Source of the DNA: Hydractinia symbiolongicarpus
Lineage: Eukaryota; Cnidaria; Hydrozoa; Anthoathecata; Hydractiniidae
Assembly (NCBI RefSeq): GCF_029227915.1
Contig: NC_079878.1
Span: 10,478,001 to 10,542,000 of the forward strand
DNA: 64,000 bases
Direction of reading: 5' to 3'
Made by a program: the position numbers and the translations under genes. The notes below the pieces were generated by a model, which was not told where the DNA came from, searched no databases, and was given only the letters and a program-made list of their open reading frames with translations. Of this stretch, positions 26,249-34,885 are shown in pieces (positions within the stretch are counted from its first letter, which is position 1; each line of letters begins with the position of its first letter).

Positions 26249-27235
26249 TTATAATGAAGAGAGTGTTATGGTTATTGTTTCTGTGTCGGGTTCTCTCTTG
26301 AATAACTTGGCAATATATTTCTTGCAATCATGGGAAATCAACATGTAGATAAATGGATCCAATATGGAGTTCACAAAAGCCAAAGTAAAAAACACATACT
26401 CCACGTCCAGTGCATATTTCCAGCCATCCAGCGCACCGCTGGCTTTTATTAGTGCAAATGTAGATAAGGGTAGCCAGCAAGCCATAAAGGCACAGACAGA
26501 CAACACAGCAATTCGTAGAATTTTCCTTTCGTTATCTAACATTTTGTTTTTTTTCTGTTTTGATTTCTTCTCCTTTACCCAATTAGATGTTGATGGTTCC
26601 GATAGATTTGTCCAGGTTATGTCTGATTTGGCAAGTTTTCTTTTCTGCTCTCTTATTGATGCATATATGCTCCAATAGCAGTAACAAAAACCAAACGATA
26701 CCACGTACGTTGACAAGGGAAACAAAATGGTTTCAAATTTGTTATTTTCCTCTACTGTTAGAGTAAATTTCATGGCACAATAGTAACCAGTGACAAAAAC
26801 CAGAGCGACAAGCCAGATGCAGTAACAAATGTTAATGGCAATTCTCCTTGTGATCTTTCTGTAAAACAATGGCTTTCTCGCTGCAAGCATTCTTACAACT
26901 GTAAAAGTCATAAGATTTAAAACTGAGAGCAGCAATGACAACCTCAACATGAAGTTTTTAGTCACATGAAGGGATTCCAAAAGAACTTTATTTCCTTTGT
27001 ACTTTGTTTTTAAAAGAAATGCGAACACTTTAACCATGATGATCATAAATCCGACCATTATATCGGAGATGGATAAATTTAGAATAAACACCAAAGAAGG
27101 AGACAAGACTCTCTGCATATTAGTCTTGAACATCACTACAATCTCAAGTATGTTTAATATTATTATCAATGCTGCATTTACTGGACTGATGTAGGTAAAA
27201 ATAATAGCATTAAGCTTCATGTTGAAGCTGTGCAA
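26249..27235 (-). CDS. Class A (rhodopsin-like) G-protein-coupled receptor, 328 aa
   Basis: A single-exon receptor with seven hydrophobic segments. Landmarks: Asn28 in TM1 (LNILEIV), NLSISD with Asp58 in TM2, a DRY-position VRM (114-116) at the end of TM3, Trp141 in TM4, CWLP (253-256) in TM6 and NSILDPFIY (289-297) in TM7. The replaced Asp/Glu of DRY and the Asp in place of Asn in NPxxY are shared by many amine- and lipid-type receptors, but the missing DRY acid is unusual. A basic third intracellular loop (KEKKSKQKKNK) is present. Ligand is unknown; the intronless form is common in cnidarian GPCR expansions. A degenerate partial copy lies at 34677-34885. A 6-kb transposon sits 320 bp upstream of the start codon. 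Confidence 0.85.
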   Translation of the reverse strand: MHSFNMKLNAIIFTYISPVNAALIIILNILEIVVMFKTNMQRVLSPSLVFILNLSISDIMVGFMIIMVKVFAFLLKTKYKGNKVLLESLHVTKNFMLRLSLLLSVLNLMTFTVVRMLAARKPLFYRKITRRIAINICYCIWLVALVFVTGYYCAMKFTLTVEENNKFETILFPLSTYVVSFGFCYCYWSIYASIREQKRKLAKSDITWTNLSEPSTSNWVKEKKSKQKKNKMLDNERKILRIAVLSVCAFMACWLPLSTFALIKASGALDGWKYALDVEYVFFTLAFVNSILDPFIYMLISHDCKKYIAKLFKREPDTETITITLSSL

Positions 27236-27549
27236 CTTTATCTAAAGTTGCATTTAATACTTTTCCACTTCTCCTTTAACTATATTAATAACAATAATGT
27301 TTGAAAAATTTTTCTTAAATACTCTAATCAAATAACAAAAGATCGAAAATAGAATTTCAATTTAAAATATATAAACCGTTTTTTATTAGCTAATTTTCCT
27401 GTGAGAAACAGGTGATTCTTGAAGTCACGTTTTTCTTAGGAATGCATAGAGAAATAAAATGATTTGAGTAAAAAATGTATCTAAAACTAATGCAACGAGG
27501 GAGTTTAACTTTTGCAGGTGCGTGAAGCCGGTAAACAACGTAAAAAAGG

Positions 27550-27555
27550 CGTTGA
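27550..27555 (+). repeat. Target-site duplication, left copy (CGTTGA)
   Basis: The six bases directly before the left inverted repeat recur directly after the right one at 33606-33611. Confidence 0.8.
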
Positions 27556-28062
27556 TATGGAACGCCAAGGCTGCCTTATTCGATGATTTCATTCGGTCAT
27601 AAAACACTATTTGTCGCTAATTGTATTCGATTTTGTTAAAATTCATTCGATTTTGTAAAAATTCATTCGATTATGCGCTAAATTCATTCGATTATGCGCT
27701 AAGTTCATTCGATTATGCGCTGAATTCATTCGATTATGCGATGAATTCATTCGATTATGCGATGAATTCATTCGATTATGCGATGAATTCATTCGATTAT
27801 GCGCTGTTTGCATGTGATAAATTATTCGATGCGCTGAATTCATGCGCTAAATTATTCGATGCGCTGTTTGCATGCGCTAAATTATTCGATGCGCTGTTTG
27901 CATGCGCTAAATTATTCGATGCGCTGAATTCATGCGCTAAATTATTCGATGCGCTGTTTGCATGCGATAAATTATTCGATGCGCTGAATTCATGCGCTAA
28001 ATTATTCGATGCGCTGTTTGCATGCGATAAATTATTCGATAGTTTTGGCGCCTCAATCAAAA
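27556..28062 (+). repeat. Left terminal inverted repeat with tandem arrays
   Basis: After about 75 unique bases come units of about 21 bp built on TTCATTCGATTATGCGCTAA (around nine, the first two diverged), then eight 30-bp units built on ATTATTCGATGCGCTGTTTG. ATTCGAT occurs in almost every unit. The repeat closes with GGCGCCTCAATCAAAA. Regularly spaced copies of one core are what multiple transposase-binding sites would look like; that role is inferred. Confidence 0.85.
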
Positions 28063-28462
28063 TTAAAATTAAAAAATGGTAACCTCTGAATTTCTTAGAA
28101 AATTAACAATTTCGCGGGAACACTTTACCATAGTGTTACGATTAAGCGTCAGTCTAATCTTGCAAAGTACATCGAAAATTTCTGAAGAAACTACGGAACA
28201 TTTATTCTCCTATAATATAAGAAAATGAATACAAACGATAAGAGCTAAAATATAAAAAATATTCTCTCTGAATAAAACAAAAATTAAGTGTCCCTTTGGA
28301 AAGGGACACCGTAAACAAAACGAAGTTTACAAGTAAACAACTACCAATTATAAAATAAGTTTTGAATCAGTGAAAAGGTAACGAAAGAAAGCATAAATGT
28401 TTGCATTTAATCACAAGAGTTAAGTTCCTAATAGGCATAAATAATAAAACTGTCGACGACTT
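28063..28462. other. Non-coding left interior of the transposon
   Basis: The stretch between the left inverted repeat and the HECT stop codon. It holds a perfect palindrome, GTGTCCCTTTGGAAAGGGACAC, at 28288-28309, possibly an RNA hairpin in the ligase 3' region. No ORF was recognised. Confidence 0.5.
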
Positions 28463-31139
28463 TTAAATTTGTCCAAAAAATCGACTAGAAAAGGCTAAGT
28501 CATATAAACCGAACAGAGCGTTTTCGTCTGGAAGGGAAATAGCATTACTTTCCATTGGTAATTGCAATTGATTAATGCAAGTGTTACTTGTCGGAAGAAA
28601 TCGACCTTCTTCCATCACCGGAACAAATTTTATCGAAGGGGCCAGTGCAAATCCTAACAAAGGCTCTTCTTCACTTCCAGTGACAAACCTTAGTACATCG
28701 GGAAGCGAAACACCCGAACGTTTTCCACCTAAACAGTAACAAAAATAGAAAGTTTATATATAGATATTTCTTCCGCACATAATTTCTTCCCTTAAGGTAG
28801 CAGAAGCCAGCTTCCTTTGTGAAACTCTGCTCATACAAAATAAAAAATGTTTGGCTATTTAGTTTATAGAAAAGCGGAGCGAGCGCGTGGAAATTTAAAT
28901 TTGACACTTACCATGTGCTTGCCTCAAATATTTCATTAATGACGGATAAAGCTTTTTCTGCCTGTAATGTTCGTTTGACCCTTCAGCTGCCCATTTTGGC
29001 TGAAGCAAGTTGACCAGTTTTTTAAAAGTGAAAGTAGCATTAGGATTGGGTCGGAAAAGGTGTAGCATGATAGGAAAGGCTTCCACAATCTGAAAGCAAT
29101 GATAACTAATTATAATGATAAATAAACTCATTGAGTGTAGATGTAAATACAATGCTCAACAGATCTTTTCCTTATGTATTTACTTACCGTATTTCCTCTA
29201 TTAACGCCCCCTCTAATAAACCTTAAAATGCTGAATTTAGGTATTAGAAAACAGACGGATAAGAGGAAATACGGTATGTTAAGAGAAAGCTTTATGAGAA
29301 AAAGCTTCTTTTAGAGAAACATCCAAAAATATATAATACAAACTTGGAAAATTCCAAGATCCTTGAAAGCTCTTCGGAGTTCATTGAATTTGCCAGGTTC
29401 TTCGTTAAAAAATATTTTTTGCAGGTCATCTTCTTCCAAAAACTGTGGAAATGGACCATTCTGAAGCAAACTCAAGCCTAAAAAAATAAGAATAAACACT
29501 CATTTTCATAGAATATTTATCTTTTTAGATTTTTTTTTAGTTTTTAAGAAGCTCACAACAACAAGAAATGTTTTTGTGTTCCTTTTTTCAATTTCTCACA
29601 GTGGTATAACGCTGAGTGTAATTACGTACCAAAAACTATTCCAATATCATAATAATCACTTAAAGGAAACAAGTTTATTTCACAATCAAAGTATTTTTCT
29701 TTGATTTCTCTTATTATCTGTTGAAAAAACTCTTTTCTTGGCCCTCCATAATCTTCTGCCAACTAAAAATATAATAATATAAATGATAAATAATATAATA
29801 TAATGATTACACAAACATGTCTGGTAAAATAAACAAATTAACTGATGAACAAAAAAACAATCTTAATATTAAACATGAAGATAAAAATAATACTCTTTCC
29901 TACCTCACCATAAAACTGCACAGATAAACAAATCAACTTATTTTGCAGTTCCCGTATCTCTTCTAAACCAGTTTCAATAAGATTGGCCCGATCAACCATG
30001 ATAAAATTTGTTGGTCTGTCATCATGAACCGCAATATCAGTTATTTCTAAACTTCGACCTTGAACTAACTTCTGCTGCATATACCGTAATATCTCGACTG
30101 GTGAATTCACTTGATTATCAATGCAATAACTGATGATGTTGTTAATGTTTGCATTGAGATCAAATTCTTCGTTGTTATTAGCATTATCCTGCTTTTGATC
30201 TCTTGTTTCTGGAATGTACTCATAGCTTATTCGAAAAGCAGATTCAGTTTCAGTTATTTCATTGTTTTCCTCTTCATGGGTCACCTCATTTGATAACACA
30301 GGGGGTAATGCAACTTCTGAATCATCACTAGATTCATAGTATGGCATGCATAACTCAGTATGTTGTCTCAGTTCTTCGAGACAAAACTCCTCAAAACAAT
30401 TTAAACATTTTTCTTTGATAGAAGTTGTTACTGTACTTGCCTTTTGCAGAGGTATTACCGACAACGACTTTTGAATTGGACGTATATAAATCTTTCCTTG
30501 TCCTATGGTAGCTTTCAAAGATATGGAATTTAGTTTGCAATTCAAAGGTTCAAGGATCCTGCAATTTGGGATACATTTTAATAACTCAAACCCGCCACAA
30601 TGTTTTAAAGTTGGAAAACCTTCAGTTTCTCCATTCTCTTTGTTTTGTGCATCTGCCATTAATTTGGTGTAAACGTCAGTCTCATCATCATCAATATCAA
30701 AAGAAATCTTTTTTAAACCAAGGCCAGCATTATGTAGCACTTGCTTTTCTGAAGGTGTTGGTAATTTTGTTCTTGTTCTGTCAGCTAAGCAGACAAACTG
30801 GCCTGTCCAAGTTCTTTTCTTTGCTTTTTTTGATCTACCATTTGGTTTACTACTGCTGCTGCTTCTGCTGCAGTTTCCATTTGTCTGTCTTGCATATGGC
30901 GCGAATAGTGTTCTTCTCTCTTCTCTGATTCTACTGGACGGGCCTTCCCTACTATTAGAATTTTTTTGACGACACATGTCCTTAAGACGGATCCTGTCAC
31001 CCAACCTTTGCACTCCCAGACGTTTCAGATCCTCATCCGTAGCAGCCATAACAATATTGATATCCACCTTTTCTTCATTAAATCGGGGGAGAAGGTTTAA
31101 TAAACCTATGTCAGTAAGAATATTTTCGATAGAAGCCAT
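28463..31139 (-). CDS. Transposon-borne SAM-zinc finger-HECT E3 ubiquitin ligase, 648 aa, five exons
   Basis: Exons 31139-29904, 29762-29630, 29477-29344, 29089-28912 and 28728-28463 splice GT-AG with perfect phase continuity (1,947 nt). Residues 1-57 are a SAM domain (LGVQRLGDRIRLKDM near its end). Next come a Ser/Lys-rich linker and a finger CLNC...HTELC (Cys245, Cys248, His260, Cys264; C-x2-C-x11-H-x3-C), similar in spacing to ubiquitin-binding UBZ or C2HC fingers. An acidic linker leads to a HECT domain from about residue 380 to the end: VQFYGE joined to DYGGPRKEFF across the exon 1/2 junction, SLLQNGPFP, FVTGSEEEPLLGF, and LPTSNTC with catalytic Cys611. HECT enzymes take ubiquitin from an E2 onto this Cys and pass it to substrates. 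The domain resembles the short G2E3-type HECT. Transcribed in the same direction as the integrase, 540 bp downstream. Confidence 0.85.
29185..29276. repeat. 92-bp MITE inside an intron of the HECT gene
   Basis: It opens TACCGTATTTCCTCT and closes with the exact reverse complement. The interior has TTAACGCCCCCTCTAATAAA, a phrase echoed near 63440 (TAATAAACGCCCCTTTT). It sits in the third intron of the transposon ligase gene, so it was nested after the host element formed or was inherited with it. Confidence 0.7.
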
Positions 31140-31679
31140 GTATACTATTAGTTGTTGCTAAAGAAGAAAGACAGTATTATATGATAGTATCCCCATAGAA
31201 ATCTGTAATTTAAATAATAATATTTTTTGTTAAAGAAATATAGCTTTATGCATTTTAAAAAGAACTTTTCAATCATTTAAGATGCAATCAAATTACTTTA
31301 AGATACAGGGTGCCACAGGAAGAATTTGTTTGAACATAAAACTTACAACATATATAAAGGCTCTTATATATATACACCATGTTAATAACAAAAAAACAAT
31401 TCAAATCCAGTTAATATAGTTCTTCAACAAGAAGAAAAGTAAAGAAGAAAATAATATATATATATACTATTTACATGGATTATATATATGTAACATAGAC
31501 AACTTTCTGAGCCCTCAAAACAAAACAAATTCTGAACTTGGTTCTCAGTTCATAACTTAATTTTGATGAGTTAATTTTCCAGTTCACATTAAGCGAAGTG
31601 AGAATGTATCCAAAAAATTACTCATAAAAAATAAATCAATCAAAATACACCAAAATTCACAACTTTCAATGTCAGATTA
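31140..31679. other. Spacer between the two transposon genes
   Basis: AT-rich and without ORF. It should hold the integrase 3' end and the promoter of the HECT gene. TATATATA runs occur near 31365 and 31455, but no initiation signal can be fixed. Confidence 0.45.
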
Positions 31680-33047
31680 TTATTCTTGGATATATTTTTC
31701 TATTATATCCAGAGCCCGTAAATAGCTGTTAATTCCACTGTTCTCATGTTTAGAATCATCCGTTATAGTTTCTGAAAGCTCTTGAAAACAATTTTGACTT
31801 ATCTGCTGATGAAAAACAAAGATTGGTCTCTCATTCTCCTCAGGTTCTTCCTCTTCAGTGGATAAATAGCCTTCTACTCCATAAAGTTGATCAACCTCAT
31901 GAGGGGCAATACCCACAGGATTGGTCATCTGTCCAGAAACCCACAATCTGATGGGAGAAGAGTTGACTGTTCTCAATCGGTGAGTAGACCATGCTTGTCT
32001 CCACCATTCAAGCTTAGCAACAATTAGGGGCATATATATATAATGCAATGCAGACAAATGCAATCCATTTGTCGCATCTAAAATACCTTTGTCTTCCATA
32101 AAGTAAAACAGGTTATAGAAATAAGACAACACTCCACTAAAAATGTCTCTCCAAAGTCTTTCCACTCTTTGGTTGTGTGTACTTTTACCTGCTATCACAC
32201 TTCGCCTGTCAGTTCCACGCTTTTCTAGCATGTAATCTGCTACGAGAACATTTTCCTTCCCTTTGTCACACCTCAATCTGCTTGGAAGACCATATTCGCC
32301 GACTGCGAATTGAAAACATTGAAGAATAGTGTCCGATTTATTGTTATCGGTGCAAAATAAACCGACAGGTAACCGGCTAAACCCATCAACGATCCCAGTA
32401 GTTATAAAATACCAGCGCACCAATTTGTGGTTTGTGTCTATATGCCACAAGTGGTTTGGCCCTTGCACGTTATAGATTCGACGGTGCAGCCTCCTTTTGC
32501 TTCTAAACTGAATACCATCTTTATCAATTCTCTGCAAACTTTCTCTTAGCACTTGCCTTTGAATTCGTATCCCACGTTCCCTTAACAGTTCTCGTAACAT
32601 AACTTCGCCACAATTAGGAAACTCTTGAGTCACAGTGCTCAGAATTGAATCACACTCTTCATTAGACATTTCTGTAAAGTTATGCTTTTTAAGCCCATAC
32701 TCTTCCATTCTTCTATAAATTGTTCTTTCTGAAACGCATAAGATATTGCTGATCTCCGAAATAAGACAGCCGTCATTGAGTAGGTTTTGTAGGACTTCTT
32801 CAGGTATTAGGAATTTTGGAGCTCCTCCATTTTCCCACTTTAACTTTTGTGGTTTAATTCCACCAAAGCTGCAAAATTTTACCCTCAAGTTCATTATAAC
32901 TCCATTATCTGTTACACCTAAGCTTTCGAAATGCTTTAGAGAAAGCTTTGGTATCAAATCAGCGGTTATATTTTCTTCACTAAACTTCAAAATAAGGTGT
33001 TTCAATCCAAGTTTCTTTAATATAGCTCGTGTTCTTTCGTCAGCCAT
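31680..33047 (-). CDS. SAM domain-HTH-DDE integrase (transposase), 455 aa
   Basis: The start chosen is ATG at 33047, which opens directly into a SAM domain (residues 1-60, with LKHFESLGV). The open frame continues upstream to 33182 through the inverted repeat, giving 45 extra repeat-derived residues. After SAM comes a helix-turn-helix ([20 protein letters not shown], 95-114), then the integrase core with WHIDTNHKL (Asp204), [20 protein letters not shown] (Asp261) and [11 protein letters not shown] (Glu296). The DDE triad is complete, with 34 residues between the second Asp and Glu as in retroviral-type integrases. [17 protein letters not shown] follows, then an acidic tail. This catalytic type is common in transposon-derived proteins of cnidarians and fish. 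It should cut and join the element ends. The ATG lies 21 bases inside the right inverted repeat, so its promoter is probably in that repeat. Confidence 0.88.
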
Positions 33048-33068
33048 ATTAATTTTGTAATCCTTGAG

Positions 33069-33605
33069 TTTTGATTGAGGCGCCAAAACTATCGAATAAT
33101 TTATCGCATGCAAACAGCGCATCGAATAATTTAGCGCATGCAAACAGCGCATCGAATAATTTATCGCATGCAAACAGCGCATCGAATAATTTAGCGCATG
33201 AATTCAGCGCATCGAATAATTTATCGCATGCAAACAGCGCATCGAATAATTTAGCGCATGCAAACAGCGCATCGAATAATTTAGCGCATGCAAACAGCGC
33301 ATCGAATAATTTAGCGCATGAATTCAGCGCATCGAATAATTTATCACATGCAAACAGCGCATAATCGAATGAATTCATCGCATAATCGAATGAATTCATC
33401 GCATAATCGAATGAATTCATCGCATAATCGAATGAATTCAGCGCATAATCGAATGAACTTAGCGCATAATCGAATGAATTTAGCGCATAATCGAATGAAT
33501 TTTTACAAAATCGAATGAATTTTAACAAAATCGAATACAATTAGCGACAAATAGTGTTTTATGACCGAATGAAATCATCGAATAAGGCAGCCTTGGCGTT
33601 CCATA
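33069..33605 (-). repeat. Right terminal inverted repeat with tandem arrays
   Basis: Mirror of the left repeat: the same unique tip, the same 21-bp array, then nine instead of eight 30-bp units, which accounts for its 30 extra bases. The order of unit variants differs in the array interior, so units have been gained or shuffled by slippage or unequal exchange. It probably also supplies the integrase promoter. Confidence 0.85.
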
Positions 33606-33611
33606 CGTTGA
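33606..33611 (+). repeat. Target-site duplication, right copy (CGTTGA)
   Basis: Exact match to 27550-27555, abutting the right inverted repeat. Confidence 0.8.
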
Positions 33612-34676: not shown

Positions 34677-34885
34677 TTACATCGAAGATAATGTTATTGT
34701 TATTGTCTCTCCTTCTGATTTTTTGTCAAATAATTTGGAAATGTATTTTTTACAATGATGGGAAATCACCATGTAGATAAATTGATTCAATATGGAGTTT
34801 AAAAAAGCCGAAGTAAAAAACACATACTCCACGTCTAGTGTGTTTCCACCCATCCAGCACACTTATTAATGCAAATGTAATCGCG
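34677..34885 (-). pseudogene. 3' fragment of a second GPCR copy, frameshifted
   Basis: Matches the end of the receptor at 26249-27235: DVEYVFFT, NSILNQFIYMVISHHCKKYI and the tail ETITITLSS. The shared stretch begins in the TM6/TM7 loop, where TGGATGGGTGG matches TGGATGGCTGG; the segment after it has lost bases, which breaks the frame before DVEYV. NPxxY is NQFIY here. The rest of the receptor upstream is missing or too decayed to see. A tandem duplicate that decayed is the simplest reading. Confidence 0.75.

Follow-up and report, generated by a model that had tools for sequence, protein, structure and literature searches.

The 64,000-nucleotide stretch of the Hydractinia symbiolongicarpus genome analysed here (contig NC_079878.1, positions 10,478,001 to 10,542,000; hereafter the window) holds a DNA transposon in which a transposase gene and a gene for a HECT protein are both open inside TATGG..CCATA boundaries (Table 1). 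A sequence-only reading of this DNA had described an intact element with inverted repeats, a 6-bp duplication, a complete integrase and a complete HECT gene with catalytic Cys611, and this description proved correct to the base. The HECT gene lies downstream of the transposase gene on the same strand and is separate from it, not fused. Its five exons splice into a protein of 648 amino acids, identical over 648/648 residues to NCBI LOC130647115 of H. symbiolongicarpus, with both lobes of the HECT fold and a predicted catalytic cysteine in the C-lobe, Cys611, that at least 90% of 32 relatives share in an alignment. Because of this fold and the active-site motif, the protein is predicted to be a ubiquitin ligase. 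When the flanks of the window copy were joined, no empty site was found for them within the window.

Table 1. Coordinates of the transposon, its target site and its two genes in the window.
Feature	Position	Strand	Remarks
Whole transposon	27556..33605	.	6,050 bp, ends TATGG..CCATA
Target-site duplication, left	27550..27555	.	CGTTGA
Target-site duplication, right	33606..33611	.	CGTTGA
Terminal inverted repeat, left	27556..28040	.	97% complementary to right repeat
Terminal inverted repeat, right	33121..33605	.	
Subterminal tandem array, left	27625..27803	.	21-bp unit
Subterminal tandem array, left	27799..28040	.	30-bp unit
Subterminal tandem array, right	33091..33362	.	30-bp unit
Subterminal tandem array, right	33358..33521	.	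21-bp unit
Transposase, 455 amino acids	31680..33047	-	rve/rva_4 core with D204, D261, E296
HECT exon 1	29904..31139	-	SAM-like domain, conserved middle module, C2HC-like zinc finger (below cut-off)
HECT exon 2	29630..29762	-	conserved HECT block begins, DYGGPRKEFF
HECT exon 3	29344..29477	-	
HECT exon 4	28912..29089	-	
HECT exon 5	28463..28728	-	C-lobe with predicted catalytic Cys611
Predicted catalytic Cys611 codon	28577..28579	-	motif TSNTCIN

The closest matches of the SAM-like domain of the HECT protein are the SAMs of ANKS3, ANKS6 and BICC1, which are self- or hetero-associating domains. The N-terminus of the transposase is also SAM-like and is accompanied by a helix-turn-helix-like region, both matches lying below cut-off. 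The left 21-bp subterminal array may possibly contain transposase-binding sites. Residues 110-221 of the HECT protein, the conserved middle module, match no Pfam family; their predicted strands and helices follow an order that looks beta-grasp-like. Intron 3 of the HECT gene contains an inverted pair of 21 nt around a 62-nt gap (29179-29282), possibly a small palindromic insert.

Classification of the element

The hallmarks given for IS3EU are TA..TA termini with a target-site duplication usually of 6 bp (PMC10045372) and ends of the form TAYGG..CCRTA (PMC12730594); in 2022 Repbase held 45 IS3EU families, 17 of them autonomous (PMC10045372). The window element carries TATGG..CCATA at both ends, is flanked by a 6-bp duplication (CGTTGA) and encodes a transposase with an rve-type DDD/E core. 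Since ends, duplication and transposase type all match the published hallmarks, the element is very probably an IS3EU, as the sequence-only reading had suspected. A Ginger1 transposase would end in an Ulp1 or OTU protease (one listed family is marked NA; PMC2836005), and the window transposase has no Pfam match to either at E values up to 0.1. Upstream of its rve core no Pfam zinc finger matched up to the same value, a search in which the HHCC motif was not sought as such. The ends, the 6-bp duplication and the rve-type DDE transposase are shared with published IS3EU; the HECT gene as second gene is what differs, and the main texts of three papers on IS3EU, PMC10045372 and PMC12730594 among them, contain neither 'HECT' nor 'ubiquitin'.

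Copies in the Hydractinia genome

A search of the genome (480.9 Mb) with the window transposase returned at least 102 matches, of which at least ten are nearly full length and near-identical, and all ten were examined; the lists of genome matches for transposase and HECT alike are lower bounds. Perfect 6-bp duplications, all different, flank seven of the ten copies, and an eighth has a duplication matching at 5 of 6 bases; L006 has none and is followed at its right end by repeat-like sequence, and for L004 no right end was found. The complete HECT gene is present in 6/10; these six genes differ by 0-1 amino acids, are free of stops and retain every splice site. The other four are internal deletions still holding pieces of the HECT gene, L010 among them with a broken transposase too. 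The HECT gene is largely gone from L008 and lacks the start of exon 1 in L005; both copies have an open transposase and a perfect duplication. Two shorter copies, L012 and L014, likewise combine perfect duplications with internal deletions. It is thus almost certain that the element is a transposon of which the HECT gene is an integral part, travelling inside it, and the element was apparently mobile recently. The sequence-only reading had named copies lacking the HECT gene as evidence against itself; such copies do occur, but as deletion derivatives and in no other form.

A genome search with the HECT protein gave at least 88 matches, falling into 40 loci. For 32 of the 40, a listed transposase match is found no more than 6 kb away, where 0.095 would be expected from the fraction of the genome that is this close to one; these 32 are not independent events, since family members share descent. 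Three of the eight HECT loci with no listed transposase nearby were fetched, and all three hold transposase remnants: one has window-family ends, a GTATAC duplication and about the first 53 transposase codons, another the first 111 residues of a transposase of the 503 family (described below), and the third decayed transposase pieces alongside the HECT gene.

Diverged families with other gene arrangements

Two diverged families, here called 503 and 526, carry the same two genes in different orders. In a 503-family element with perfect ends and the duplication CACATC (C3:23042991-23049515, 6,525 bp), a HECT frame of 641 amino acids lies upstream of the transposase on the same strand; in a 526-family element, also with perfect ends and flanked by CACCCC (C11:17041921-17047615, 5,695 bp), HECT and transposase stand tail to tail. 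Their transposases are 37% (503) and 40% (526) identical to that of the window. Pfam recognizes the HECT domain at 5.6e-14 in P0235, this same protein of the 503 family in a public source, and at 5.9e-18 in the 526 family, and the active-site cysteines, assigned by eye, lie in SAC (503) and MSC (526) motifs. The 641-amino-acid frame is open in nine of the eleven 503-type rows of the HECT search, and weak C-lobe matches beside 503-family copies turned out to be part of it in the one copy read whole (L049/L022/L050). Decayed tail-to-tail pairs occur at L011, L015, L018 and L044, the last a broken copy with weak ends (14/20 bases complementary), and at L045 the HECT middle module lies upstream on the same strand. 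The HECT ligase gene is a second, recurrent component of the IS3EU-type transposon. The suggestion that the pair marks one distinct transposon family is not supported in that form, since within this one genome several IS3EU-type families have both genes, in three arrangements.

Transposition of the 503 family is shown directly by the copy at C3:4459693-4464605, because its joined flanks match two element-free units of the same transfer RNA (tRNA) array over 400/400 bases (100%). This copy has an internal deletion of its own, which has spared the transposase but left only the middle of the HECT gene. The array (L040/L041/L020, G000:C3:4456600-4475367) consists of units of about 1,302 bp with six tRNA genes each (Ala, Met, Leu, Ala, Lys, Asp), and 503-family copies sit at two places in it, about 10 kb apart. 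The 503-family HECT protein also has a CUE domain, a ubiquitin-binding type of domain, at residues 209-246 of P0235 (1e-5); Pfam finds no CUE in the window protein.

Relatives in other animals

Relatives of the HECT protein number 114 and include proteins of Clytia, Dendronephthya, Porites, Pinctada, Saccostrea, Pecten, Ptychodera and Antedon; the transposase has 706, of which the best 120 were listed. The 503-family HECT protein has matches to six proteins of fish (23-26% identity), of which two bear the name HECT domain-containing. Among 72 pattern matches in viral contigs there was no relative. With equal size taken to mean the same contig, 5 of the 53 public HECT contigs of 5 kb to 2 Mb have a counterpart in the transposase rows listed (11,836; 30,226; 459,999; 468,268; 749,193), where jittering of the sizes led to an expectation of 0.0095. 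The two short contigs point to close linkage of HECT and transposase; a wide separation of the genes is possible on the three long contigs. A contig of 1,544, too short to be telling, and one of 62,650,966, a Pinctada chromosome, were excluded from this count.

The distances of the two partners correlate across eight pairs, comprising the window family, the five public contig pairs and the 503 and 526 families (r 0.948, p 0.00015), and continue to do so when the latter two are left out (r 0.953, exact p 0.0028); two of the eight pairs are closely related, their HECT parts being 90% alike, and for one contig with two transposases P0158 was used. The partners also agree in their SAM-like regions, which occur in both in the window family, L011, L044 and, weakly, L015, and were found in neither partner in the 503 and 526 families. 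The SAM profiles of HECT and transposase align with each other (hhalign 98.4%, for one pair and with no control).

Discussion

The sequence finding is solid; the role of the ligase is a proposal only, and so is the suggestion of the sequence-only reading that it may act on host factors or on the integrase. That transposase and HECT gene are found together again in several relatives with different arrangements suggests that the ligase likely contributes to the movement or persistence of the element, and I favour, as somewhat better than an even guess, the view that it works as a partner of the transposase in the transposition of an intact IS3EU-type transposon, its activity and its binding both being predicted. 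Transposases of this type cut at paired ends and insert at staggered cuts. By homology, the Hydractinia transposase would excise the element and integrate it at a target with a 6-bp stagger; the ligase could then dock on the transposase, in the SAM-bearing lineage by contact of the two SAMs, and ubiquitinate the strand-transfer complex or adjoining chromatin proteins, after which host factors might dismantle the ubiquitinated complex and pass the gaps to host repair. That the target is the strand-transfer complex or nearby chromatin proteins is a tentative choice, for which I would claim rather less than even odds. A role of ubiquitin or SUMO enzymes in repair during transposition has been proposed before (PMC2836005).

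Several observations weigh against a partnership of this kind. Only 32/88 transposase loci have a HECT locus listed within 6 kb, and the element at L046 (4,555 bp, perfect ends) has a transposase, a different open reading frame (ORF) of 215 amino acids and no detectable HECT gene; thus, HECT is not universal in such elements. The agreement in SAM-like regions rests on six families, which are few, and in it first exons may be missed and L018 could not be judged. Moreover, the HECT SAM scores higher against ANKS3 (26.7 bits) than against the best transposase (23.5 bits; 54/121 transposase sequences matched). Finally, the ratio of non-synonymous to synonymous substitution rates (dN/dS) shows no clear sign of selection: measured against the decayed copy L017 it is 0.54 for HECT and 0.70 for the transposase, for HECT against L013 and L014 it is 0.14-0.25 from very few differences, and against L011, L018 and L044 it is saturated.

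A special kinship between the HECT and transposase SAMs is not claimed, since ANKS3 scores above every transposase given. At L047 (2,877 bp) there is only a weak HECT trace (E 0.0054). The 215-amino-acid ORF of L046 (4042-4686, minus strand) stands tail to tail with the transposase and has a sub-threshold match to the ubiquitin family (0.074), which raises the question of another kind of partner gene.

The main rival to a role in transposition is counter-defence, in which the ligase would mark a host silencing factor (of the PIWI-interacting RNA, chromatin or innate sensing machinery) for destruction and leave the transposition complex alone. The TET/JBP dioxygenases of fungal IS3EU elements have been proposed to escape silencing (PMC12730594) and Helitron deubiquitinases to protect transposition proteins (PMC9741609), and a HECT gene that is not fused to the transposase would suit such a task; the SAM concordance and the co-varying distances point instead to contact with the transposase, though both are compatible with counter-defence, which I regard as unlikely but worth serious consideration. 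The ligase might also act on the transposase in the opposite sense, tagging it for degradation and so keeping copy number low. The window family has only few copies with a nearly full-length transposase (at least ten), and L008 and L005 have lost parts of HECT but neither the open transposase nor the perfect duplication. Within a genome, however, selection would favour loss of a gene of that kind, whereas a complete HECT gene is kept in at least two families and has relatives in several phyla, all of which makes such self-limitation improbable.

Transposons capture genes, and a host HECT gene could have been captured once and carried along without function. The dN/dS values, with no clear sign of selection, are consistent with such a passenger, and the transfer of TET/JBP between fungal transposons has been called passive (PMC12730594). 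A single idle capture nevertheless fits poorly with homologous HECT genes in three arrangements, the linkage at 32/40 loci and the correlated distances, or with an active-site cysteine kept across relatives from several phyla and six complete copies free of stops, and I consider it very improbable. Least credible of all, to the point of being hardly conceivable, is the reading that makes the HECT gene a mobile element in its own right, nested within a copy of IS3EU. The sequence-only reading had asked whether the gene has independent boundaries of its own; the nearest thing to them is a 21-nt inverted pair of 81% (28251-28271 / 31111-31131), which is no support, as one arm, the right, falls within HECT exon 1. 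Of the 24 inverted pairs listed, not one encloses the gene completely, on which ground a nested element was rejected; in addition, the ten copies share one arrangement or its deletions, and homologous HECT genes are found elsewhere in other families.

Several known systems resemble the Hydractinia element. Fungal IS3EU elements also carry further enzyme genes beside the transposase, but these are TET/JBP and alpha-kinase genes in fungal hosts (PMC12730594), where Hydractinia has HECT. Ginger1, found in Hydra, likewise unites an integrase-like transposase with a ubiquitin- or SUMO-related activity on one transposon, although in most Ginger1 elements this is a fused Ulp1 or OTU protease that removes tags (PMC2836005), whereas the separate Hydractinia gene is predicted to attach them. 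VTD- and OTU-bearing Helitrons, too, carry an enzyme of the ubiquitin pathway, in their case a deubiquitinase on a rolling-circle element and not a ligase (PMC9741609). In Chapaev and RAG1 a ubiquitin ligase domain is tied to the transposase as a fused RING finger (PMC4411706), unlike HECT, which is of the thioester-forming type and encoded separately here.

The literature search, which covered few subscription papers, found no paper with both 'IS3EU' and 'HECT', and an earlier mention in Repbase is possible; a broader search with the same coverage saw none describing a HECT-transposase pairing. Hence, of the possibility that the pairing already belongs to a named family, one half stands, as IS3EU is a named family, and the other does not, as no paper found holds both terms. 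HECT is not named in the available texts of PMC10045372, PMC12730594, PMC9741609 and PMC4411706, nor in that of PMC10641963, on transposons misannotated as genes, and the main text of PMC11067881 contains no 'HECT', 'Ginger' or 'IS3'. As far as its available text goes, PMC6431247 brings up ubiquitin in connection with Burro retroelements alone, and OTU with Helitrons.

Known transposon-borne activities include enzymes that remove ubiquitin or SUMO (Ulp1, OTU, VTD) and RING domains fused to the transposase (PMC9741609, PMC2836005, PMC4411706). It is about an even call whether the following all hold together: that animal IS3EU is a two-gene system in which transposase and HECT have co-evolved despite shuffling of gene order, that it provides the first HECT-based transposition cofactor, and that many cnidarian, mollusc, hemichordate and fish genes annotated as host 'HECT-type E3 ubiquitin transferases' are transposon genes. 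A separate HECT ligase gene that remains paired with an integrase-like transposase in several families, in different orders, would make the long-suspected role of ubiquitin in transposition testable through one catalytic cysteine and an apparently recently mobile element in a laboratory animal. Furthermore, invertebrate HECT gene counts may be inflated by mobile copies, the window HECT gene being listed as an ordinary gene, LOC130647115.

Genomic surroundings

The left side of the element adjoins a frame for a rhodopsin-like seven-transmembrane (7TM) receptor (26249-27241, minus strand; Pfam 7tm_1 1.3e-23). Just to the right of the element, a frame at 34677-34862 (minus strand) resembles the left receptor frame as judged by eye. 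The element seems to lie within a cluster of receptor genes.

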